Source of the DNA: a virus
DNA: 30,623 nucleotides
Reading direction: 5' to 3' (one strand)
Virus record (IMG/VR): IMGVR_UViG_3300033571_006274
Coordinates: 1 to 30,623 of that record
Under the pieces are notes generated by a model. It made no database searches and was not told the origin of the DNA. It saw nothing but the letters and a program-made list of their open reading frames with translations. Shown in pieces: positions 2,573 through 29,211 of this stretch. The position numbers and the translations under genes were made by a program. Position 1 is the first letter of the stretch. Every line of letters starts with the position of its first letter.

Positions 2573-2746
2573 TTAATTTTCCCTCTTTTGTTTCTCGGTT
2601 TCGATAAAATCTATTAATAATTTTATATAAATTTCCCTCTCCCAGGGCATCATATGTTCAATTTCAGTCAAGCTATATTTGTGATGTTGCATGAGTGAAA
2701 AATTTATCGTATAATAATTTGATAGTGAGTTATGAGAGAGGGCCAT
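2573..2746 (-). CDS. Small gp51-position protein, probable frameshift partner of gp26
   Basis: A 57-codon gene whose ATG (2746) shares one base with the TGA stop of gp26 (TGATG). It ends just before the GTG of the hub-lysozyme gene. The protein contains HKYSLTEIEHMMPWEREIYI followed by a charged helix. A short helix with a P-W-E-R-E core is typical of the second product of tail-assembly chaperone pairs, and T4 has gene 51 directly after gene 26. It is much shorter than T4 gp51 (249 residues as I recall it), so homology to gp51 is not claimed. The frame is exactly the -1 frame relative to gp26, reached by slipping on eight T's. It could therefore be made mainly as a C-terminal extension of gp26 (predicted fusion about 295 residues) rather than from its own start, which has no well-placed ribosome-binding site. 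Confidence 0.75.
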   Translation of the reverse strand: MALSHNSLSNYYTINFSLMQHHKYSLTEIEHMMPWEREIYIKLLIDFIETEKQKREN

Positions 2747-3459
2747 CAAAAAAAATCAGACAATCCCTTGAGTGTAATAGTATCTTCTTGACCACAACCT
2801 TCGCATTTGTATGATAGTGTATGCTGCAAACGTGGCATGGTTTCAAAAAATTTCATTATTTCCATAAATTGCTGATTGCTCAGACTACTGACAAATTGAC
2901 GAGCTTCATCCAAACTATCAGGTTCATACAATTCTTCGTCATCATATACACATTCGATACATTTTGTTATCAAATCGATTTCATCTATACCTGATGAAAC
3001 ACTAGATTTAATATCAGCTAAAGTTGGATATCTCATTTTCATTGTCAAATTATCTGTTAGTTTGATATTAGGTGAATGGTCATCCCTAAATTCGACTTCA
3101 ACATCATCTAGATTAATTTCAATTTTTGTGACCGCATCACATTGCTCACCATTATAATTTACACCATCAACGTGTCTATAACTAAGATTTACTTTTTCAC
3201 CGACCGATTTTGCACGAATCTTTAGAAAAAGATATTCAATATCAAATGATGGAAGTTTTTCTATATCAATACCTTCAGTCATTATACATCCAGTAATTAC
3301 ATCAATCATAGCTCTATTCATATGATCGATGTCTTTAGATTCCATCGCGATCAGTAATGTTTTTTCTTCTTTGACTAGAAACGGTCTAAAAACTATTTCC
3401 TTTTTATTAGATGGTAAAATCAAAGAAAATGTCGGAACCGCAATTTTAGGTAATGCCAT
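2746..3459 (-). CDS. 26: Baseplate hub assembly protein gp26-like
   Basis: A 237-residue protein resembling the T4 baseplate protein family that includes gp26 (208 residues in T4). The N-terminus has the family pattern of a short beta-rich lead (LPSNKKEIVFRPFLVKEEK), then a helical section (AMIDVITGCIMTEGIDIEKL) and FLKIRAKSVGEKVNLSY. A CEGCG motif near the C-terminus could bind metal or form a turn. In T4, gp26 acts in baseplate hub assembly. A good ribosome-binding site (GGGAGG) sits about 8 nt before the ATG, in the gap after gp54. Its position before a small gene joined by a slippery run suggests it is the short product of a chaperone pair, as in lambda G/GT or P2 E/E'. The family assignment is likely; the chaperone role is inference. 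Confidence 0.75.
   Translation of the reverse strand: MALPKIAVPTFSLILPSNKKEIVFRPFLVKEEKTLLIAMESKDIDHMNRAMIDVITGCIMTEGIDIEKLPSFDIEYLFLKIRAKSVGEKVNLSYRHVDGVNYNGEQCDAVTKIEINLDDVEVEFRDDHSPNIKLTDNLTMKMRYPTLADIKSSVSSGIDEIDLITKCIECVYDDEELYEPDSLDEARQFVSSLSNQQFMEIMKFFETMPRLQHTLSYKCEGCGQEDTITLKGLSDFF
2747..2769 (-). promoter_or_regulatory. Candidate programmed -1 frameshift signal (gp26 to gp51-like)
   Basis: On the minus strand gp26 ends GAT TTT TTT TGA, giving a T-TTT-TTT slippery heptamer at 2755-2749. An AAGGGA Shine-Dalgarno-like sequence (2769-2764) lies 8 nt upstream of it, a layout like the stimulator of E. coli dnaX. After a -1 slip the next codons are TTG ATG, entering the 57-codon frame without a stop. 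No convincing downstream hairpin was seen by eye. Confidence 0.65.
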
Positions 3460-17493: not shown

Positions 17494-20400
17494 ATGACGG
17501 GGATAGCTAATACAGTCACGATCACCACAAATTTAAATGTGGATCCGTATTACGACGATTTTGACGAAACAAAAAATTATCATCGTATTCTTTTTAGACC
17601 GGGTCTAGCTGTTCAAGCGCGTGAACTCACACAGATTCAGACCATATTACAAAACCAAATTGATAGATTTGCTGAGCATGTATTCAAAGAAGGTAGTATA
17701 GTTACAGGTTGTCAATTAATTTTTGATAACCAAGTAACATTTATTAAATTGCGTGATAGGTCTTCTGTCGGAACGGTTGTCAATTCGGCCGCATTTTTAA
17801 ATAAAATAATAACAGGCCAGACATCTGGTGTAGAAGCAAGTGTTATTTTAACTAATAGTGGTTCTGAGGCTAATACACCCAATTACAAAACTTTGTTTGT
17901 AAAATATACTGGTGCTAATGGTTCTCAAAGAACTTTTTCAAATGGTGAAATTATTACATCTACTGGTGGTTTATCAGCAAATTTAATAACATCTTCAGCT
18001 ATTGGTACAACATCTTTAGTAAAAATTGGGCCAGGTATAGTTTTTGCTAAGGATCATTTTATTCGAGTAAATGAACAAAGTATAATACTTGACAAGTATC
18101 AAGCAAATTCATCATATAGAATTGGACTTGAAGTTTTTGAATCAATAGTAAACGAAAATATTGATTCTTCTTTGTTAGATCCTGCATCAGGTTCATATAA
18201 CTATGCTGCACCTGGTGCAGCAAGATTGCAACTTACACCTAGATTAGTGAAAAGATATGTATCAGAAAATTCGACAAATAATTTTGTTGAATTGTTTTAT
18301 ATCAAAAATGGTGTAATCCAAGCAAAATCAGATAAACCTGAATATAACAAAATCAAAGATTATATTGCTGAACGTACATATGATGAATCTGGTAACTATG
18401 TTGTTAATGGATTACAGCCTAGAGTTCGAGAACATTTGTTAAGTGGAGAAAACCAAGGAGTTTATACTTCTGCTGATGGTGGAAGTGCATCTAGACTTGT
18501 AATAGAAATATCTCCTGGTAAAGCATATGTTATGGGCTACGATCATCAATATTTGATTAGTAATAAAGTCACAATTAGTAAAGCTACAGATTTTAATTCT
18601 GTTGAGCAAGTTGCAACAAATGCTGATTATGGAAATTATATAACTGTTCTGAATATGTCAGGACAGTGGGATGTAAACGGTCAAAGTCAAGTAACTTTGC
18701 GCGATGCTAAGATGAACTCTATTACAAATGGAGTGTATTCTACTACATCACTTGCCGGAAATATCATAGGTTATGCTCGTGTTCGAGCAATAGAATATTC
18801 ATCAGGAACACCAGGACTTTCAACATGTCAGTATAAGATGTATCTAACTGATATTAAGATGAATGATAATAAATCATTTACTGGGGTAAAATCTATAGGT
18901 TATGATGCTTCTGCTGCCGATGGTAAAGCTGACATACTTAATGCAGATGGCACAAATGCATCTACTACAGATCCATCATTTGACATAGGTGTATTTGGTC
19001 TACCAGTAACTGCTGTTAAAAAATTAAGAGCTACCGACGGTACGATTGATACAAATTTTAGTTTTAAAAAATCTTTTGATGTTGCATTTAATACTGGAGC
19101 AGGCAGCTCTGCTACTCTATCTACTGGCAGTGCATCAGAAACTTTTTCTGGTTCTGGTGCATTATCTGATGATGCCACACGCTCTAGGTTCTATCTTGTA
19201 TCAAGAGGAACATCAAATACAACAAATTTAACTGGAACTATTACAGTAACATCTGGTAGCACCTCAGTTACAGGGTCTGGTACTTCTTTTGCCACTCAAT
19301 TAAGCCCAGGTGATATTATTGCGTGTTCTCCTACTCAAAAATTTATAGTTTCTAGTATCACAGATGCTACAAATTTAACTCTAACTGCAAATGCAGCATC
19401 TAGCACTGGTGGCGCATTTCATAAGAGATTCCTTGAAGGTCAAGTTATTGATTTTGGTAATAAGGGTGGTGGTGGCGATCGTTCTATTTCAATTAATTCT
19501 ACTACTCAAGCCACTTTAAATTTAAATGAAAATCTTAATACAGCATTAAATGCTACTGTTATTACAGAGCTTAATCGTGTAGATGGACAAGAAGCATCTA
19601 AAGTTATAGCTCGTAATAGATTGGTTCAGTTAAGTCTAACATCTGATTTATCTGGGCCTTGGGTTTTAGGTCTTTCTGATGGGTTTAGATTAGTATCAGT
19701 CAGAAAGAAAAGTGGTTCAGGATTTTCATCCACCACAGAGGGTACTGATGTAACTAATCAGTTTACCCTAGATTCTGGTATGAGAGATACAATCTATGAA
19801 CATGCGCGTCTAGTTAAAAAACCTAATAGCACTCTTTCTCTAGCTTCAGGTGATAGACTTCTAGTAAAATTTGATCATTTTACACACAGTTATTCATCTG
19901 GTGTAGGGTATTTCTCGGTAGATTCATATCCAGTCGATGATGACAATGCTGGTACTGATACTACAAAAATTTACACATATGAAATACCAATATATTCTTC
20001 ACCAAGAACTGGTAGACAATACGATCTTCGCGATTGTATTGATGTTCGTCCAAGAATGACGGATACGGCAACCAGCACCACAACTTTGTCCGGTATAACA
20101 ACTAATCCAACTATATCAATATCACTAGATCAGCCTACAGGCGGATTGCGTCATGTTGCCCCTGGTGATAATTTTACAGTAGATTTGGATTACTATCTGC
20201 GGCGTAATGATAGAATAGTTGTTGATAAGAATGGTAATTTCCGTGCGATTAGAGGAACACCATCTTTAAAGCCAATTACACCAGATGAACCTGGTGGAAC
20301 TATGTCTATTGCAACTATTAATCTTACCCCATACCCATCTCTACCGGATGAGCAAGCTCGTCGAGTATCTCGACCTGATTTATCTAATTCAATATTCCCA

Positions 20401-23400
20401 ATTAAAAATCCAAGATTTACTATGAGGGATATTGGAGTTATACGTGATCGTGTTGAAAATCTTGAATATTATACTACGTTAAATTTTCTAGAGCAAAGCA
20501 CAAAATCATTGTCAGTTAAAGATTCATCAGGTAATGATAGATTTAAAAATGGTATTATAGTTGATCAATTTGCTGGTCATAATATTGGTGATGTGACAAA
20601 TCCTGATTATAAGATTTCAATAGATGCCGCGCGCGGAGAAGCTCGCCCTCCATTTAAAATGGATAATTTTGAGCTATTCTATACAGCTGCAAATTCAGTA
20701 AATGTTGTTAGAACTAATGTTACATCACAAGGGGTTTCTCGTGATCAGACATTATTCATATCAAATTCATCAATTGCATTTGCAAATGGAGAATTAATTA
20801 CTTCAGGTGATATAACAGCTCGTTTAAGATTTAAAGTCGATAATAAATTATATATTGAAGATGCTTCTGGTAATTTTACTATTGGTTCAGGTGTCAGAGG
20901 CAATTTTAGCTCGGTAACTGCCACAATAACTGGAGTTACGCAACAAACTCCTGGTGACTTGATCACTCTATATTATTCTCATAGACCTTTTATTACGCAA
21001 CCTTATGCTTCTACTACAAGAAATCCGACCGGTCTATTTTGGAAATGGAATGGGAGCGTATTACTAGATCCTGATAATGACTATTGGACTGATACTGTTC
21101 AGCTTCCTGATGTTCAAGCTAATGTAAATCTGTTTAGCGATAATTGGCTAAACATGCAATCGGGATGGAGCACTTCTTGGAATTCGTGGCAAACTTCTTG
21201 GCAGGGGTCTTCATCGGATACTTCATCTAGGAGAGGTGGTAGTGGCACAACATCTACAACTGTTACAACTACAACATCTGAGGAATTTAGAACTGGTACG
21301 GCTTATGATGTAGTACCAAGAGAAACTCAGTATTCTACTGGTGCTAGAGTAGTTTCCAATAATATTATACCTTTTATGCGTTCCCGTGAAATTAGATTTA
21401 CAGGTAAAGGATTAAAACCTGGGGGTAGAGTATACGCATTTTTTGATGGAACCGCAGTTTCATCTTATGTAACTCCAACAAATTCATTATTTGTTGCATC
21501 TGGTTCTGAGGGATCAAATTTAATTGCATCTTCTAATGGAGATGTATATGGGATCTTTAGATTACCAAATAATAATTCATTAAGATTTCGTGTTGGATCA
21601 AAAATATTCAGACTAACTGATAATCCAACAAATTCTTCGACAGTTGGTACTGTAACTACCTCTGCTGAAGGTACATATACTGCTCAAGGTTTATCGCAAC
21701 AAACTGAAACTACAATAGTTTCAACACGATATCCTGAAATTGTCTCGCGCAGTGTATCTGAAACAAGAGTAGTTACATCTAGTACATCCCATTCAACATT
21801 TATACCTGATCCTGAACCACCACCACCACCAGTTTACATTGAGGTCCCTGGTCCAGCACCGGATCCTATAGTTATAACGCAAATTGTTGAAGTTGAAGTA
21901 CCGATTATTATACAGGTGCCTGAACCACAACCGCCACCGCCACCACCACAACCTCCTTATGAACAACCACCGCCACAGCCACCGCCACCACCCCCAGAAC
22001 CCCCACCTCCGCCACCAGAACCACCGGAACCAGAACCTCCGTGGAATGCTGGTGGTGTTGAAGGTGGTGGTGGCGACGGGGGTGGCGGCGACCCTATAGC
22101 GCAATCATTTTTCATCAATACTAAGACTCTAGGTTCTCTTAGTAACGGAATTTATGTTACTAAGGTTGATTTGTTTTTCAACACTAAACATGAAACTTTA
22201 GGTGTTGAAATCCATATTCGTGAAATTGATCCTATAGCTGGTAATATAACTGGTCGCATAGTTCCGTTTAGTAGAACTGTAATAATGCCTGGTGAAGTTA
22301 ATATAAGCGATGATGCTTCTAAACCTACTCCTGTATATTTTCCATCACCTGTTTTCCTTCAAGATGGTAAAGAATATGCAATAGTAATAAAGCCTATTGG
22401 AGATAACCCTGGTTATTCATCTTTTATTGGTAGACTTGGTGACACCGATATTCTTACAGGTGATAGAATAGTTTCCCAGCCTGCTGCTGGTATGCTATTT
22501 GCTTCATCTAATGATCGTCAATATTCACCAATACAAGAAGAAGATTTGAAATTTACATTATATCTCGCTACCTTCTTGAGGTCTGCAACAGGACGAGCAA
22601 CCTTTAAAAATGAATTGCGTGATTATTTTACCATAACAAATGCTAATGGTGCATTTGATACGATAGGCGAATCAGTCCATGGGGAAACTATTCTAGTAGG
22701 TACATTTGCTACTACAAATACACAACCTGTGAATACTGGTGTGACCTTTGTTCAAGGTATTACATCAGGTGCAACTGGTACAATATCTAGATTTAGTCCT
22801 ACACAATTAAGAGTACGCAATGTCTCTACCGATGTCAAATTCTTAGGTGGTGAAGTAATTCGAATCCGAAATATTGGTGCAAATTCACAAAGTCCAATAT
22901 CAGGTCGAATCATTGGTGTTTCAAATGGCGCAATAACATCTGCTACCACACCTGTAGGTAAGACAGTATATTATAATGCAGTTGGTTACAGCAATACATT
23001 CTTGCATCTGGCTAATGTATCTTATGTGAATAGTGGTCCAGCCTCAACATCTGGTCGTACTTTCTTTGCGAATAATTATATTCGTGGTCAGAGAACTGGA
23101 TATAATGCATATGTGTCTCAAATCAATCGACTGCGTGCTGATGTTATCAATTTTAGCACAGATTATATACAACCACCAAATACAGGTTTAGCGTTCTACG
23201 GTAAATTTGCTAAGAGCAATTCAACCCGCGATACAACCAATCTTCGCATATATCCAAATGATAACTATGAATTTGATGCTCCTAGATTTGTTCTTAGCCG
23301 TAGTGCAGAGTCAAACACTGTATCTACAAGCTCTACAATGGCTACGGATAGATCGGCAGAAATTTCAGTATCCATGGCCACACAATCTGCTTTCACTTCT

Positions 23401-23949
23401 CCAGCTATCGATGTGAAAAGAATATCGGTTATTACCGTTGAAAATATGATCAATGCTAATACCACTAATGAAGCCGGCTATTCTAGCGGTGGTGGAGCTA
23501 TGGCTCGTTATATAACTCGAAAGATTACTTTGGCTGATGGACAAGATGCTGAAGATATTCGAGTTTATGTGACAGCATATCGTCCACCAGGTTCTGATGT
23601 ATTAGCTTATTATAAGGTATTACATCGCGAAGATAGTGATACATTTAATGAAGCAACATGGATTCCGATGTCCATAGCTTCAGAAGAAGGTGTGACAGCA
23701 TCAACTGTTTACTCTAGCTCAGAAAATCAAGATGATTTCAAAGAATATGTGTATGGTATTCCAACTTATGGAAATACTTATAAATCAGGTGCCAATACTA
23801 CAAATTCAAGTATCCTTGAATATCGCAATTCAGAAGGTGCTAGATTTGTTGGATTTAAATATCTTTCAATCAAAGTGGTGCTAACTAATACCACAACTAC
23901 TCGTCCACCAAGAATGGATGATATTAGAGTGATAGCATTGCAGAGATGA
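17494..23949 (+). CDS. Giant DUF4815-type baseplate / tail-fibre connector protein
   Basis: A 2151-residue protein, the largest here. The N-terminus (DPYYDDFDETKNYHRILFRP, GLAVQARELTQIQTILQNQI, DRFAEHVFKEGSIV) is typical of the DUF4815 family in T4-like marine phages, as is MRDIGVIRDRVENLEYYTTL near residue 985. An Ig-like/beta-rich middle contains SGSTSVTGSGTSFAT (around residue 590). YAFFDGTAVSSYVTPTNS (around 1315) starts a further conserved module. A poly-proline then poly-glycine hinge (1438-1532) separates it from PIAQSFF, GIYVTKVDLFFNTK and PSPVFLQDGKEYAIVI. The C-terminal 600 residues are beta-rich. It is probably an external baseplate or fibre-connecting component in the gp9/gp10 position, an inference from context. 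AAGGAAAAAAG precedes the ATG. Confidence 0.78.
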   Translation: MTGIANTVTITTNLNVDPYYDDFDETKNYHRILFRPGLAVQARELTQIQTILQNQIDRFAEHVFKEGSIVTGCQLIFDNQVTFIKLRDRSSVGTVVNSAAFLNKIITGQTSGVEASVILTNSGSEANTPNYKTLFVKYTGANGSQRTFSNGEIITSTGGLSANLITSSAIGTTSLVKIGPGIVFAKDHFIRVNEQSIILDKYQANSSYRIGLEVFESIVNENIDSSLLDPASGSYNYAAPGAARLQLTPRLVKRYVSENSTNNFVELFYIKNGVIQAKSDKPEYNKIKDYIAERTYDESGNYVVNGLQPRVREHLLSGENQGVYTSADGGSASRLVIEISPGKAYVMGYDHQYLISNKVTISKATDFNSVEQVATNADYGNYITVLNMSGQWDVNGQSQVTLRDAKMNSITNGVYSTTSLAGNIIGYARVRAIEYSSGTPGLSTCQYKMYLTDIKMNDNKSFTGVKSIGYDASAADGKADILNADGTNASTTDPSFDIGVFGLPVTAVKKLRATDGTIDTNFSFKKSFDVAFNTGAGSSATLSTGSASETFSGSGALSDDATRSRFYLVSRGTSNTTNLTGTITVTSGSTSVTGSGTSFATQLSPGDIIACSPTQKFIVSSITDATNLTLTANAASSTGGAFHKRFLEGQVIDFGNKGGGGDRSISINSTTQATLNLNENLNTALNATVITELNRVDGQEASKVIARNRLVQLSLTSDLSGPWVLGLSDGFRLVSVRKKSGSGFSSTTEGTDVTNQFTLDSGMRDTIYEHARLVKKPNSTLSLASGDRLLVKFDHFTHSYSSGVGYFSVDSYPVDDDNAGTDTTKIYTYEIPIYSSPRTGRQYDLRDCIDVRPRMTDTATSTTTLSGITTNPTISISLDQPTGGLRHVAPGDNFTVDLDYYLRRNDRIVVDKNGNFRAIRGTPSLKPITPDEPGGTMSIATINLTPYPSLPDEQARRVSRPDLSNSIFPIKNPRFTMRDIGVIRDRVENLEYYTTLNFLEQSTKSLSVKDSSGNDRFKNGIIVDQFAGHNIGDVTNPDYKISIDAARGEARPPFKMDNFELFYTAANSVNVVRTNVTSQGVSRDQTLFISNSSIAFANGELITSGDITARLRFKVDNKLYIEDASGNFTIGSGVRGNFSSVTATITGVTQQTPGDLITLYYSHRPFITQPYASTTRNPTGLFWKWNGSVLLDPDNDYWTDTVQLPDVQANVNLFSDNWLNMQSGWSTSWNSWQTSWQGSSSDTSSRRGGSGTTSTTVTTTTSEEFRTGTAYDVVPRETQYSTGARVVSNNIIPFMRSREIRFTGKGLKPGGRVYAFFDGTAVSSYVTPTNSLFVASGSEGSNLIASSNGDVYGIFRLPNNNSLRFRVGSKIFRLTDNPTNSSTVGTVTTSAEGTYTAQGLSQQTETTIVSTRYPEIVSRSVSETRVVTSSTSHSTFIPDPEPPPPPVYIEVPGPAPDPIVITQIVEVEVPIIIQVPEPQPPPPPPQPPYEQPPPQPPPPPPEPPPPPPEPPEPEPPWNAGGVEGGGGDGGGGDPIAQSFFINTKTLGSLSNGIYVTKVDLFFNTKHETLGVEIHIREIDPIAGNITGRIVPFSRTVIMPGEVNISDDASKPTPVYFPSPVFLQDGKEYAIVIKPIGDNPGYSSFIGRLGDTDILTGDRIVSQPAAGMLFASSNDRQYSPIQEEDLKFTLYLATFLRSATGRATFKNELRDYFTITNANGAFDTIGESVHGETILVGTFATTNTQPVNTGVTFVQGITSGATGTISRFSPTQLRVRNVSTDVKFLGGEVIRIRNIGANSQSPISGRIIGVSNGAITSATTPVGKTVYYNAVGYSNTFLHLANVSYVNSGPASTSGRTFFANNYIRGQRTGYNAYVSQINRLRADVINFSTDYIQPPNTGLAFYGKFAKSNSTRDTTNLRIYPNDNYEFDAPRFVLSRSAESNTVSTSSTMATDRSAEISVSMATQSAFTSPAIDVKRISVITVENMINANTTNEAGYSSGGGAMARYITRKITLADGQDAEDIRVYVTAYRPPGSDVLAYYKVLHREDSDTFNEATWIPMSIASEEGVTASTVYSSSENQDDFKEYVYGIPTYGNTYKSGANTTNSSILEYRNSEGARFVGFKYLSIKVVLTNTTTTRPPRMDDIRVIALQR
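21805..22092 (+). repeat. Poly-proline / poly-glycine hinge-coding low-complexity tract
   Basis: CCA/CCG/CCT-rich stretch coding residues about 1438-1516 of the DUF4815-type protein. It has several runs of four to six prolines separated by Glu, Gln or hydrophobic residues, including two more structured spacers (YIEVPGPAPDP and IVEVEVPIIIQVPEP). A Gly/Asp run follows immediately. Such a tract likely forms a stiff rod plus flexible joint. The complementary strand gives a Trp/Arg-rich open frame that is only a shadow. Confidence 0.9.
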
Positions 23950-25015: not shown

Positions 25016-26050
25016 ATGGCAGAGCCATTAAAAATTAAAAAAAGCGGAGCGACCTTTCAAGGTCTACAAACTATGACTACGGCTGAGCAGGATTATGCTG
25101 CTCATATTATTTTAAAAAATTTCGCATCTTCAGCTACTGGTTTAGGTACAGTTAATATTGATGGTGTATCTGGCACGTCTATTGGTACATTTTCTGATAC
25201 TACCAGACCTTATACCGTAGGTCAACATCCAGTTGGTACTGATCTTACAACAGTCACATATACATTTAAACAAGTAGTATCACCTGCCGAATCTGAAACA
25301 TCATTAACTAGACCTGTAGAATATTCAACGAGTGGAGTCAGACAGCAAAATGATACGCAGCTTAATGCTGCGGTTATTTCACGCGCATTGTCAAATATGG
25401 TTGCTGGTGGTGTTGGTGTATACAAATTACAACCTTCTGCCCCTGTAGGAACTTGGGTTTCTCGTGGCACTATAACTAATACAACAAGTGCAGGTACAAA
25501 TACTAGCACATTGTGGCAAAGAACTGATGATACTGCGCCTACTACAGTTCGGCCGATAAAATATTCAAGCAGTGCTCTTCGGGAAATGACGGATGCTGAT
25601 ATACAAACCTTAACTGCAAGATTTAGAAATAGAATTGTAAATACTGGTATAGGTACATATAAAGTTCAGACATCAGCACCAACACCAGGAACTTGGGTCA
25701 CAAGCGGTTCAGCTTTTGATGATACAAGAAATCAGTTAGCTAATCAGACTTATACCGGATCTTACTCAGGATCATATTCTGGAAGTTATACTGGGACATA
25801 TACAAGAGCTTTTAGTGGTACATATTCTAGAGCATTTTCAGGAACATATATTTTATTTTATGCTGGTAGAAATGCGGGCTCTTTTACTGGATCATATACT
25901 GGGTTTTTTACAGGATCTTATACAGGTTCATTTTCCGGTTCTTACACTGGTAACTATACCGGCAATTACTCTGGTAATTATACAGGCGCTACTATTCAGG
26001 CAACCTTAGAGACTGTATCAACTGTTAGTTTGTGGTTGAGAACTGCTTAA
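25016..26050 (+). CDS. Adhesin-like tail protein with aromatic-glycine tetrapeptide array
   Basis: A 344-residue protein. An N-terminal module (LKIKKSGATFQGLQTMTTAE then QDYAAHIILKNFA) matches a common start of structural proteins in marine T4-like phages. Two related domains follow: residues 99-151 (RPVEYSTSGVRQ ... GVGVYKLQPSAPVGTWVSRG) and 179-231 (RPIKYSSSALRE ... GIGTYKVQTSAPTPGTWV), an internal duplication. Residues 245-324 are twenty successive tetrapeptides of the form S/T/N-Y/F-S/T-G. No transmembrane segment is seen. It lies right after the repeat fibre and could be the distal receptor-binding part or an attached adhesin, an inference from composition and position. A ribosome-binding site (AAAGGTGG) precedes the ATG. 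Confidence 0.72.
   Translation: MAEPLKIKKSGATFQGLQTMTTAEQDYAAHIILKNFASSATGLGTVNIDGVSGTSIGTFSDTTRPYTVGQHPVGTDLTTVTYTFKQVVSPAESETSLTRPVEYSTSGVRQQNDTQLNAAVISRALSNMVAGGVGVYKLQPSAPVGTWVSRGTITNTTSAGTNTSTLWQRTDDTAPTTVRPIKYSSSALREMTDADIQTLTARFRNRIVNTGIGTYKVQTSAPTPGTWVTSGSAFDDTRNQLANQTYTGSYSGSYSGSYTGTYTRAFSGTYSRAFSGTYILFYAGRNAGSFTGSYTGFFTGSYTGSFSGSYTGNYTGNYSGNYTGATIQATLETVSTVSLWLRTA
25748..25987 (+). repeat. Twenty tetrapeptide repeats (SYTG-type)
   Basis: 240 bases encode exactly 20 four-residue units, in one register. Most are SYTG, SYSG, NYTG, TYTG or SFTG. Five depart from the pattern (TYTR, TYSR, TYIL, RNAG, FYAG) without losing phase. Codons vary between units, so the array is old and held by selection on the protein rather than recent DNA slippage. 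Confidence 0.9.
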
Positions 26051-26083: not shown

Positions 26084-26539
26084 ATGCTAATAGAACAAAC
26101 TGAACGCGAGATACTTGACCCATATTGGGGTAATAATTTAAAAACGCAAATTATTTGTAAATTTAAATTTGCTAATGGTGGTATAGCAACTGCCGCAGTT
26201 TCTAAAACTGAAGAAGGTAATCCTGATTGGGATGCCATTTTTGAAAAATTTACTATAGAACAGATAGATGAAAATACTACAGATAAAATTAAATCACGCG
26301 ATGAAATTGTATTAAAAAATCAAATCGATGATCAAAAACGTATTGAAAATATGCGTAGAGAATCGCTATTCTTAGCTAAAACGGATGCATTTGAACTTGA
26401 TCTAGTTCGTACATCAAAAAATACTGCACTTAAATCAAAACTAAGAAAAGCTGCTACTCCTTTAGAAGTGATGATATTTGCAACTATGATTGCGATTGAG
26501 AACTATCAGCAAATCACGGCCCAGCAGAATGAGCAATGA
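26084..26539 (+). CDS. Conserved hypothetical after the fibre genes
   Basis: A 151-residue protein. The N-terminal half (REILDPYWGNNLKTQIICKF, KFANGGIATAAVSKTEEGNP then DWDAIFEKFTIEQIDENT) is a beta-rich small domain resembling short hypotheticals found next to fibre genes in marine T4-like phages. The C-terminal half is a charged helix (RDEIVLKNQIDDQKRIENMR). No catalytic motif is seen. The position directly after the adhesin-like gene is reminiscent of a fibre chaperone, but nothing in the sequence proves that. It overlaps the next gene by 11 bases and has GAGAGG upstream. Confidence 0.6.
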   Translation: MLIEQTEREILDPYWGNNLKTQIICKFKFANGGIATAAVSKTEEGNPDWDAIFEKFTIEQIDENTTDKIKSRDEIVLKNQIDDQKRIENMRRESLFLAKTDAFELDLVRTSKNTALKSKLRKAATPLEVMIFATMIAIENYQQITAQQNEQ

Positions 26540-27269
26540 TATATCTAAAGGATTTTTATTAGTCGCATCATTATCGGCTGGATATTATCAAGCGGCAATA
26601 AAATGCGCGATATCATTAAAAGATTATTATCCTGATGCAAGAATAACTCTTTTTACACATGAAGCTTTCTTTCAAGAAAAACATAGATATTTATTTGAAA
26701 ATATCAAATTAGGTATACCTGTTCATTCCAGAGCAAAATTATGGTGTTTGGATAAAACACCATATGATATTACTGTATATCTTGATTGTGATACTGAAAT
26801 ATGGCATGAAGATATAACAAAAATTTTTGATCAGATAGACGATAATGACATACTAATAACTAAGATTAGAGAATATGCCGGTAAAGGTACATTCATTAAT
26901 CAAGATGAAAAAATGATATACCATTGCGGTGTATTCATGTATAGAAAATCAGAAAAGATTATTAATTTTATGAATGACTGGTGGAAGAATTATCTTTACC
27001 AGATATCAACTTATCCTTGGCCGTGGAAAGAATATGATGAAAAAATGCGGCCTTGGGATCAATTTGCTTTTTGGAAATTATTAAAAGAAGATACATCTGG
27101 AATCAAAATTGGAATTTTCCCGGATGATGCTAGATGGAATTTTGTAGAAACATATAATGAAAATGAAACTAAAAACCCTATAGTTGTTTACCATTATATG
27201 ATACCGTCAGAGGTTATACATGCAAACGCTATCCAAAATCCATCCGGATCTGCAACAGATATTAGATAA
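26529..27269 (+). CDS. GT-A-like glycosyltransferase 1
   Basis: A 246-residue protein starting at ATG 26529 (MSNDISKGFLLVASLSAGYY); a longer in-frame start at 26490 would lie inside the preceding gene. It shows a nucleotide-sugar transferase pattern: AAIKCAISLKDYYPDARITL (first Rossmann-like unit), then YLDCDTEIW with the metal-binding D86-x-D88. Downstream IYHCGVFMYRKSEKIINFMN and a late acidic or aromatic region (PWDQFAFWKLLKED) match the usual NxGxxxxR-type and D-Q active-site positions of GT-A enzymes. It presumably moves a sugar from a nucleotide donor to an unknown acceptor. It overlaps the previous gene by 11 bases and the next by 50, so it belongs to the same operon. Confidence 0.72.
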   Translation: MSNDISKGFLLVASLSAGYYQAAIKCAISLKDYYPDARITLFTHEAFFQEKHRYLFENIKLGIPVHSRAKLWCLDKTPYDITVYLDCDTEIWHEDITKIFDQIDDNDILITKIREYAGKGTFINQDEKMIYHCGVFMYRKSEKIINFMNDWWKNYLYQISTYPWPWKEYDEKMRPWDQFAFWKLLKEDTSGIKIGIFPDDARWNFVETYNENETKNPIVVYHYMIPSEVIHANAIQNPSGSATDIR

Positions 27270-27852
27270 TTTTAGCGATTGGTTTTTTAAGCAAGATCAT
27301 TCATTGCTTAATGTCCAACGTAGAGATGATTTTAAAAAAGAATTATCTTATATCGAATGTACTAATGAAGAATATATCAAAAATGCACTTCCTGAACCAG
27401 AAAGATTTGGTTATCCTAGAGATTGCTATGGTGTCGATCTAAATCATGAATCAAAATTACCTGCTGGATATACAGATGTATTAACACGACTTGATACTAA
27501 TCTGATAGAATTTCTTGGTGCAAGAAATAATGCATTAAAAATGTATTATCCACCAAAAGGGTTTATTGGATGGCATAATAATGGTAATGCTTGGGGTTAT
27601 AATATTATAATGACATATAATAAGACTGGAGATGGATGCTTTTATTCTTATGACCTAGATAATAAAATTATAATTGAGCATCCAGATTCTAAAGGTTGGA
27701 CAGTCAAGGTAGGTTATTTCGGTCCATTTTCAGAACCAAATAAAGTTTATTGGCATTCTGCTAGAACTGAATCTGATAGATTTACACTAAGCTATGTCAT
27801 TTTTGATAAAAATATTTGGGAAAATATGATCGAAGAAATAGAGCTATCTTAG
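27220..27852 (+). CDS. Probable 2-oxoglutarate/Fe(II) oxygenase-like protein
   Basis: A 210-residue protein starting at ATG 27220 (AGAGG 7 nt upstream), within the end of the glycosyltransferase. A jelly-roll-like core begins at about residue 110: YYPPKGFIGWHNNGNAWGY with H119-x-N121, then VYWHSARTESDRFTLSYVIF with H179 and R187. The 60-residue spacing between the histidines and the trailing Arg fit 2OG oxygenases, which hydroxylate proteins or small molecules. The usual HxD has Asn in place of Asp here, so activity is uncertain. The N-terminal 100 residues are helical and unrecognised. It could be an inactive relative. Its 3' end overlaps a convergent gene by 9 bases. Confidence 0.52.
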   Translation: MQTLSKIHPDLQQILDNFSDWFFKQDHSLLNVQRRDDFKKELSYIECTNEEYIKNALPEPERFGYPRDCYGVDLNHESKLPAGYTDVLTRLDTNLIEFLGARNNALKMYYPPKGFIGWHNNGNAWGYNIIMTYNKTGDGCFYSYDLDNKIIIEHPDSKGWTVKVGYFGPFSEPNKVYWHSARTESDRFTLSYVIFDKNIWENMIEEIELS

Positions 27853-28449
27853 CCAAAATATAGCTTTATCATTTTTAGTATATGACGTTGAAATATATTT
27901 GTGATCAATCAAATCATATTTGTCATATTCAAATGTAACAAATTCATCATTTCCTGCATACGATAACATATAGGTTTCAGCATCACTATTAAATTTGTTC
28001 CACAAAAATTCATGGTCACCGCCTAGCCATGTCATCAAAGATGAATTGGCTATTGTAAGATGTTTTCCTTTTTGATGCCGTACTGCGGCATTAATATATT
28101 GTGAATCGATTTTATCTGTATTGGTTGCAAGATATAACATCTCATCATGTTTTATTATTGAATTTAATGGTGCAATTATTTTAGAATCTAGATCAAAAAA
28201 TATACATTTGGTATCTTTTTTGCATATACCATTTTTAAATAGAACCATCTTATACCACCAACGATCTAGATCATATTCACTAACATCTATCAATTTACAA
28301 AAATCTAAACCTTGAAATTGTGATACATCATCAGTTAAGCAGATATGCTCAAAGCTATCGCATAAATATTTTTGACACATAGTATTGATGGCATAAACAT
28401 CTTTGACTGTATATTTTGGCTTAACCAATATGCTATAAACCATGTACAT
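27844..28449 (-). CDS. GT-A-like glycosyltransferase 2 on the opposite strand
   Basis: A 201-residue protein; the ATG at 28449 (MYMVYSILVKPKYTVKDVYA) is chosen because AAGG lies 8 nt upstream. The in-frame ATG at 28509 would overlap the divergent gene. It has CLTDDVSQF, WWYKMVLFKNGI and CIFFDLDSKIIAPL (D86-x-D88), then TIANSSLMTW, the GT-A layout of small phage or capsule glycosyltransferases. It resembles the next plus-strand gene, suggesting a paralogous pair. It is the only minus-strand gene in the 25-kb plus-strand block and converges with the oxygenase-like gene. A TATAAATC box (28491-28484) on the minus strand could drive it. Substrate unknown. Confidence 0.68.
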   Translation of the reverse strand: MYMVYSILVKPKYTVKDVYAINTMCQKYLCDSFEHICLTDDVSQFQGLDFCKLIDVSEYDLDRWWYKMVLFKNGICKKDTKCIFFDLDSKIIAPLNSIIKHDEMLYLATNTDKIDSQYINAAVRHQKGKHLTIANSSLMTWLGGDHEFLWNKFNSDAETYMLSYAGNDEFVTFEYDKYDLIDHKYISTSYTKNDKAIFWLR

Positions 28450-28464
28450 GAAAGCGACCTTATC

Positions 28465-29211
28465 ATGAGCGAACAACCTACTAGATTTATATGTTATAAA
28501 TGGGGTCACAAATACCCAGCATTATATGTAAATCGTCTGTATAGCATGATTAAGAATAATTACAAACGTCCGTTTGTGATGCATTGTATAACTGATGATG
28601 GAATTGGTATTGATAGTAATGTAGTAATTGAAGACCTAGATAAGCTTAGTAGTTTTAGAGGTTCTTCTACTACAATGTTTACTATAGAAAAGGTAAGCGC
28701 ATTTAGATATGGTTTTTTAAATTGTGCGGGTCCATATGTGTTGCTTGATTTAGATATCTTAATCCAAAATGATCTCACCGATTATTTAAATGAATCATAT
28801 AATTTTTCAGAATTTAGAATGATTAATAATTATTGGGCACCACATGATGCAGTAATAAAAGCATATGGACATAGCTATTGCTCAATCAATTCTTCCTTTG
28901 TAACATGGAAAGAAGATCAAGCTCACCATCTTTATAATTATTATAAAAAGAACATAGACAAGATATCTCGTGTTTATTGGAGTTTAGATCATGCATTATA
29001 TTACTTAAATGAAAACCAATATGGATTTCATCCAAGTGGTATAGTTTATAGCTATAATGCTGGAGCCGAATGGCCAGATGATGTAGAAGTCGGTTTATAC
29101 CGAAAAGATTATAAGATTTGCATCTTCAATAATTCTCATGGTCATGGTTTTGATTTACCTGATACTAAAGGTTGGGCAAAAGATATGTGGGTGCAATATG
29201 ATAATACTTGA
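28465..29211 (+). CDS. GT-A-like glycosyltransferase 3
   Basis: A 248-residue protein starting at ATG 28465 (MSEQPTRFICYKWGHKYPAL); the longer in-frame ATG at 28372 would run across the divergent gene. Visible parts are YVNRLYSMIK, MHCITDDGIGID, FTIEKVSAFRYGF and YVLLDLDILIQNDL with D95-x-D97, followed by INSSFVTW. It is clearly related to the divergent minus-strand gene through the TDD...DLD...NSS(F/L)(V/M)TW order, but longer at the C-terminus with a D-H pair in SLDHALYYL and a final Trp-rich end. It ends in an overlap with the methyltransferase-like gene. Its role is likely sugar transfer in virion or surface-glycan modification; the acceptor is unknown. Confidence 0.72.
   Translation: MSEQPTRFICYKWGHKYPALYVNRLYSMIKNNYKRPFVMHCITDDGIGIDSNVVIEDLDKLSSFRGSSTTMFTIEKVSAFRYGFLNCAGPYVLLDLDILIQNDLTDYLNESYNFSEFRMINNYWAPHDAVIKAYGHSYCSINSSFVTWKEDQAHHLYNYYKKNIDKISRVYWSLDHALYYLNENQYGFHPSGIVYSYNAGAEWPDDVEVGLYRKDYKICIFNNSHGHGFDLPDTKGWAKDMWVQYDNT
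28484..28491 (-). promoter_or_regulatory. Possible late promoter for minus-strand glycosyltransferase
   Basis: TATAAATC on the minus strand, 7 of 8 to TATAAATA, lies inside the start of the divergent glycosyltransferase gene. It is followed by AAGG 8 nt before ATG 28449. The predicted leader is about 29 nt. It lies inside coding sequence, so chance is possible. Confidence 0.4.

Follow-up and report, generated by a model that had tools for sequence, protein, structure and literature searches.

A poly-T junction at the end of gene 26 as a very probable −1 frameshift site for the long tail-assembly chaperone of a T4-like phage

In a T4-like phage with marine and freshwater relatives, gene 26 ends in a run of T residues, within which a second reading frame opens that leads into a small gene. 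This raises the question whether ribosomes translating gene 26 can slip by one base into this second frame, and what the two resulting products would be. The locus lies on the minus strand of a stretch of 30,623 nucleotides that was analysed as a whole and is called the window here (IMG/VR record IMGVR_UViG_3300033571_006274). Gene 26 (3459-2746, minus strand) encodes a protein of 237 aa that matches PF12322 (E 4.4e-62, 210 bits, with a cut-off of 24.5) and phrog_150 (5e-67), and its zero-frame product is the candidate for a short tail-assembly chaperone. The 3′ end of the gene reads GAT TTT TTT TGA (...L S D F F stop) and contains the slippery heptamer T TTT TTT (2755-2749, minus strand) inside a run of eight T's (2755-2748). 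The zero-frame stop TGA of gp26 (2748-2746, minus strand) overlaps an ATG at 2746-2744 to give TGATG. Past the slip, the −1 frame continues with TTG ATG GCC CTC TCT (L-M-A-L-S) and forms an extension of 58 codons and a stop (2749-2573, open from 2749 to 2576, minus strand), which belongs to phrog_634 (1.7e-26). A fusion of gp26 with this extension would comprise 237+58 = 295 residues, while the open reading frame that starts with the ATG has 57 codons. In the sequence, a −1-frame TGA (2758-2756, minus strand) abuts the T run on its 5′ side, so that any −1 shift is confined to the run itself. Exactly 8 nt upstream of the run is AAGGGA (2769-2764, minus strand), a Shine-Dalgarno-like candidate stimulator that ends 17 nt 5′ of the ATG, and no Shine-Dalgarno sequence is found at normal spacing from this ATG.

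An initial annotation of the DNA had already proposed a −1 shift at this position, based on the heptamer one codon before the stop, the AAGGGA, the L-M-A-L-S continuation, the 57-codon frame with an ATG devoid of a good ribosome-binding site, and a fusion of 295 residues; its reading of the gene end is exact, and each of the other features was confirmed as well. The term “overlooked” that it used for the small gene holds in part: the gene is annotated in many cyanophages, but often with an internal start, and elsewhere it is omitted. The extension is present in 549 phage records, and its family carries the label “baseplate hub assembly catalyst gp51” in many cyanophages. In three of the loci (L013, L014, L015) the public annotation begins at internal codons (P-HM1, P-RSM6) or omits the extension (ACG-2014j). 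The annotated starts in P-HM1 and P-RSM6 sit within a conserved stretch, so that the actual N-terminal portion of the domain is found upstream of them. With 549 records carrying the extension, several hundred genomes would need re-annotation.

Conservation of the slip site and its surroundings

Loci for comparison were gathered through the extension domain and not through the T run, so that the sampling is independent of the heptamer, and isolates were added. The sample of 186 loci was clustered at 85% DNA identity, yielding 117 non-redundant heptamer-carrying loci. The extension lies in the −1 frame in 185 of the 186 loci as determined by script, and the locus of pf16 (L098) is also in −1 by reading. 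The heptamer T TTT TT(C/T/A) is present in the correct phase in 183 loci (182 by script and pf16 by reading), the three exceptions being L058, Vibrio K397 and Kuttervirus sal1. The site is found in phages as distant as Caulobacter Cr30, Pseudomonas pf16, Delftia PhiW-14 and Aeromonas Aeh1, and likewise in phages of the Vibrio KVP40-type and in Pelagibacter HTVC008M; Aeh1 and Stenotrophomonas phage Moby, which also have the slip site, were added after the 186-locus count. Thus, when relatives were aligned, as the initial annotation had suggested as a check, both the run and the −1 phase turned out to be kept, even in very distant phages.

Among the marine loci, the heptamer is broken only in L058, where it reads T GTT TTC; this is a single-base difference from close relatives (for example L037) and represents a sequencing error or a recent loss. 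In Vibrio K397 (L100) the −1 phase is kept and the heptamer is absent.

The conservation extends to positions that are free to vary at the protein level. All 117 non-redundant loci have a T immediately 5′ of the two Phe codons and use TTT for the first of them, and this invariance has a log10 P of about −34.5 when compared with the codon usage of the same genes, a value that is uncorrected for relatedness and therefore indicative. Among locus pairs with the same amino acid, the synonymous codon identity is 1.0 at the first slip Phe and 0.21-0.71 in the other 29 zero-frame codon columns (−30 to −2). Delftia phage PhiW-14, with a GC3 of 0.74 and TTT at three of its ten other Phe codons, retains TTT at the slip. 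The end of the heptamer varies, with T TTT TTC in 65/117 and T TTT TTA in 7/117 loci, both having only six T's, and the zero-frame stop is placed 0-8 codons beyond the slip across the loci.

Upstream of the heptamer, pairing with the anti-Shine-Dalgarno sequence peaks about 16 nt before it (start of the 9-mer) at −6.07 kcal/mol over the 117 loci, whereas within-gene synonymous shuffles give a weaker pairing of −4.44 kcal/mol (sd 0.10) at the same offset. The AAGGGA of the window occupies the position of this peak. In dnaX a Shine-Dalgarno sequence is located about 10 nt upstream of a −1 heptamer that allows both tRNAs to re-pair, and the window likewise has a Shine-Dalgarno-like element upstream of a heptamer suited for double re-pairing. 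With 17 nt to the ATG, the AAGGGA would be ill-suited to initiation and by analogy resembles the upstream stimulator of dnaX. The two systems differ in the heptamer, which is A AAA AAG in dnaX and T TTT TTY here, and in the downstream hairpin, which is strong in dnaX and not clearly present in the window. RNA structure downstream of the slip is somewhat stronger than in shuffled sequences among the relatives (mean z −1.9 over 90 nt), while the 60 nt downstream in the window hardly fold at all (−0.1 kcal/mol), and for this reason a downstream stimulatory structure is not claimed.

Frameshifting and its alternatives

We consider it highly likely that ribosomes undergo programmed −1 frameshifting on the T run and that the long tail-assembly chaperone would be made in this way. 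Most ribosomes would end at the TGA and release gp26, the putative short chaperone. Some would be delayed by pairing with the Shine-Dalgarno-like AAGGGA behind them, such that the P- and A-site tRNAs could re-pair on T TTT TTT one base back, and the shifted ribosomes would go on to synthesize the 295-residue long form with its gp51-type C-terminal domain. The predicted junction peptide of this fusion is ...GLSDFFLMALSHN.... The production of gp26 together with a 295-residue fusion, as proposed in the initial annotation, gains support from the conserved run, the conserved phase and the missing start codons described below. We infer that frameshifting occurs, with an efficiency that would leave most ribosomes at the TGA, and that its products act as tail chaperones.

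The TGATG overlap in the window is real and suggests another route, namely coupled reinitiation, by which ribosomes that stop at the TGA restart at the overlapping ATG and produce a free protein of 57 residues and no fusion; an ATG near the junction is likewise found in 27/117 loci. However, there is no ATG, GTG or TTG near the junction in 81/117 loci, and in 61/117 loci no start codon is located between the preceding −1-frame stop and codon +8, yet conservation of the −1-frame residues begins at the slip, before any start: codon 2 is hydrophobic, codon 4 is Leu in 99/117 and codon 6 is His in 102/117 loci. This rules out separate initiation as a general mechanism. Indeed, relatives that are 75% identical to the window (L005-L010) read ATA where the window has ATG, and the ATG reads as simply the conserved hydrophobic position at codon 2. 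For termination-reinitiation a start at or near the upstream stop should be kept in relatives; it is present as TGATG in the window and is not kept in the relatives. Moreover, the invariance of the run at the synonymous level would serve no purpose in reinitiation, which does not depend on slippage, and T4 carries the extension domain fused to a gp26-like protein. With most relatives lacking a start near the junction, reinitiation at TGATG was rejected as the general mechanism, and we regard it as very unlikely to explain the locus; in the window itself, some reinitiation at TGATG may occur.

The run could also act during transcription, if RNA polymerase added or dropped a U on it and the edited mRNA encoded the fusion. 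The window has T8, and eight T's are long enough for some polymerase slippage. By contrast, the variants T TTT TTC and T TTT TTA offer six T's, which is usually too short, and since most loci have no more than this, transcriptional slippage was rejected. The feature that is invariant is the pattern for tRNA re-pairing and not the length of the run, and a Shine-Dalgarno-like element that exceeds the level of synonymous shuffles is sensible only for ribosomes, so that slippage of the polymerase is highly improbable as the source of the long form. Finally, an A+T-rich homopolymer could lie beside an unrelated small open reading frame by chance, or result from an assembly error. The genome is A+T rich, and dinucleotide shuffles lead one to expect about five runs of T8 in the window (4.8). 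However, the run at 2755-2748 is the only one, and the site and its phase are retained across very distant phages. The junction sequence is identical in three other, independent contigs, and thus the run is not an artefact of a single assembly. The probability of chance or artefact is accordingly negligible, and programmed ribosomal frameshifting is the reading followed below.

Relation to gp26 and gp51 of T4

Both T4 gp26 and T4 gp51 belong to PF12322 according to Pfam, and they are listed as hub assembly chaperones, of which gp51 is needed for assembly and not found in the particle (PMC3004832). When the fused proteins of 114 loci were combined into a profile, it matched gp51 (E 1e-14) and gp26 (3e-23) when compared with the open frames of T4. 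In hhalign, the match to T4 gp51 spans 229 columns (97.9%, E 4e-13), crosses the junction and covers almost the whole extension, and the match to T4 gp26 ends at the slip. A profile of the extension only matches residues 207-245 of T4 gp51 (E 6.6e-8) and leaves T4 gp26 unmatched. Judged by these profiles, the extension is the C-terminal domain of the predicted long form and shares homology with the C-terminal part of T4 gp51. Thus, gp26 of the window resembles T4 gp26 up to the slip, and the whole fusion resembles T4 gp51. In T4, however, genes 26 and 51 are two separate genes on opposite strands. Gene 25 comes after T4 gene 26, whose end, GAG TTC TTT GAG, lacks the T run. T4 gene 51 is divergent, and T4 seems to make both products from two diverged genes, 26 and 51.

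The gp51 of cyanophages has been described as about 20% of full length, and gp51 has been reported missing only in Aeh1 (PMC3037559). In Aeh1 (L204; record positions 119001-119777 and just beyond) gp26 ends with GAT TTT TTC GAC TGA, and a gp51-type domain is found in the −1 frame after gp26. A long form composed of gp26 and a −1-frame extension would therefore explain why the cyanophage “gp51” has about one fifth of the size of T4 gp51 and why Aeh1 seemingly has no gp51.

The slip site is present in Aeh1, Ceceduovirus Asswx_1 and the Vibrio phages of the KVP40-type, all of which belong to the Straboviridae, as does T4. Since other Straboviridae still carry the site, it is most simply assumed that the T4 lineage abandoned it in favour of two genes. 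A wider scenario, to which we would give an even chance, is that the −1 shift is ancestral across the T4-like assemblage, that gene 26 was duplicated in the T4 lineage and fused in frame to yield gp51, and that the Ackermannviridae, which would have lost the heptamer and kept the −1 phase, use another shift. In the gene tree, T4-type gp26 and gp51 form one clade (support 0.845), and the midpoint root falls on this long branch, so that the tree alone is silent on the ancestral state; the argument rests on family membership and not on the tree. Four phages of the Ackermannviridae type (L103, L200, L201, L202) have the extension in the −1 frame and no ATG, and their gp26 ends with GA(A/G) ATT TTC AT(T/C) TAA and not with T TTT TTY. 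Three of them are classified as Ackermannviridae, and the fourth, TTM-TASP117, is unclassified.

A putative tail-assembly chaperone pair and its neighbourhood

The classic tail-assembly chaperones made by −1 frameshifting are G and GT of phage lambda, for which the slippery sequence is G GGA AAG. As in lambda, a short protein and a long form, the latter arising from a −1 slip close to the 3′ end of the short gene, are predicted for the window, with a tail tube gene upstream and a T-like C-terminal extension. The window differs from lambda in its T TTT TTY site, in the larger size of the short form (237 aa), its membership in PF12322 and the Shine-Dalgarno-like element upstream. Lambda gpG and gpGT coat the tape-measure protein and recruit the tube protein (PMC5009743). 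By analogy, many short and few long copies would coat the tape-measure protein of the present phage, and the C-terminal domain of the long form would recruit its tail-tube protein.

Structural comparison is consistent with such a role. A sequence search of the PDB with gp26 gave no significant relative. In the AlphaFold model of gp26 from the window (pLDDT 89.8), residues 1-95 have as best VIA match 3fgx, an uncharacterised protein of Bacillus stearothermophilus (Z 8.0, 3.8 Å over 86), followed by 2ob9, the tail-assembly chaperone of HK97 (Z 7.8, 3.9 Å over 84); the Z values then drop to 5.6 and, for the next unrelated entry, to 2.5, and the tool itself advises that a Z of about 8 be taken as modest. 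Foldseek assigned a probability of 0.90 to the match with 2ob9, with an E-value that is not significant. One of the two best matches of the modelled N-terminal fold is thus a known tail-assembly chaperone, from the very family predicted here, at a modest level. For a model of the T4-type gp51, no chaperone was among the PDB matches listed, the best being an unrelated protein with Z 4.9, a result that counts neither for nor against the role.

The gene just upstream of gene 26 (4398-3475, minus strand) is of the tail-tube type (phrog_45, 1.3e-24), and a long gene just downstream of the extension (2569-953, minus strand) is in the position of the tape measure. The gene at this place matches tape-measure families in HTVC008M and is annotated as tape measure in Cr30. 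The protein encoded at 2569-953 has a hydrophobic and coiled N-terminal half and a VgrG3-like, muramidase-like C-terminus (PF21277, 1.2e-37), and it may be a tape measure with a lytic domain. The initial annotation had recast gp26/gp51 as a tail-assembly chaperone (TAC) pair, and this proposal is supported by the alignment of T4 gp51 with the fusion, the fold predicted for gp26 and the tail tube gene upstream; gp26 and the 295-residue fusion are very probably the short and long members of such a pair.

In a review from 2016, T4 was regarded as an exception to the rule that the tail chaperones of long-tailed phages are made by frameshifting (PMC5009743). Nearly all of the sampled T4 relatives would obey this rule, and T4 gp51 would be the fusion encoded as a gene of its own. 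In another phage family, the Pakpunavirus/Vandenendeviridae, the TAC-N/TAC-NC proteins provide a similar case, since a conserved poly-T −1 site (GTTTTT) ends the short chaperone gene and the long extension is routinely misannotated (PMC12846349). The same paper, from 2025, cites Vladimirov et al. where it mentions slippery poly-T sequences of T4-like phages (PMC12846349). Frameshifting of tail chaperones is thus classic, and the reading of T4-like gp26/gp51 as TAC proteins is, going by the title of Vladimirov et al. (2022), not new. That title reportedly names the TAC genes of T4-like phages, and it is said to favour a mechanism other than frameshifting. In the literature searched, in which Vladimirov et al. 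(2022) figures by title and citation, no description of a T TTT TTY site was found for this group of phages.

Several other features of the window were observed. A protein predicted for the tail-fibre region (25016-26050) contains a run of S/T-G-x-Y repeats (SYSGSYTGTYTRAFSGTY...), a protein of 2151 aa (17494-23949) has a long proline-rich stretch in its middle (PPPPPEPPPPPPEPP), and several glycosyltransferase-like genes (26490-29211) adjoin the tail-fibre genes.
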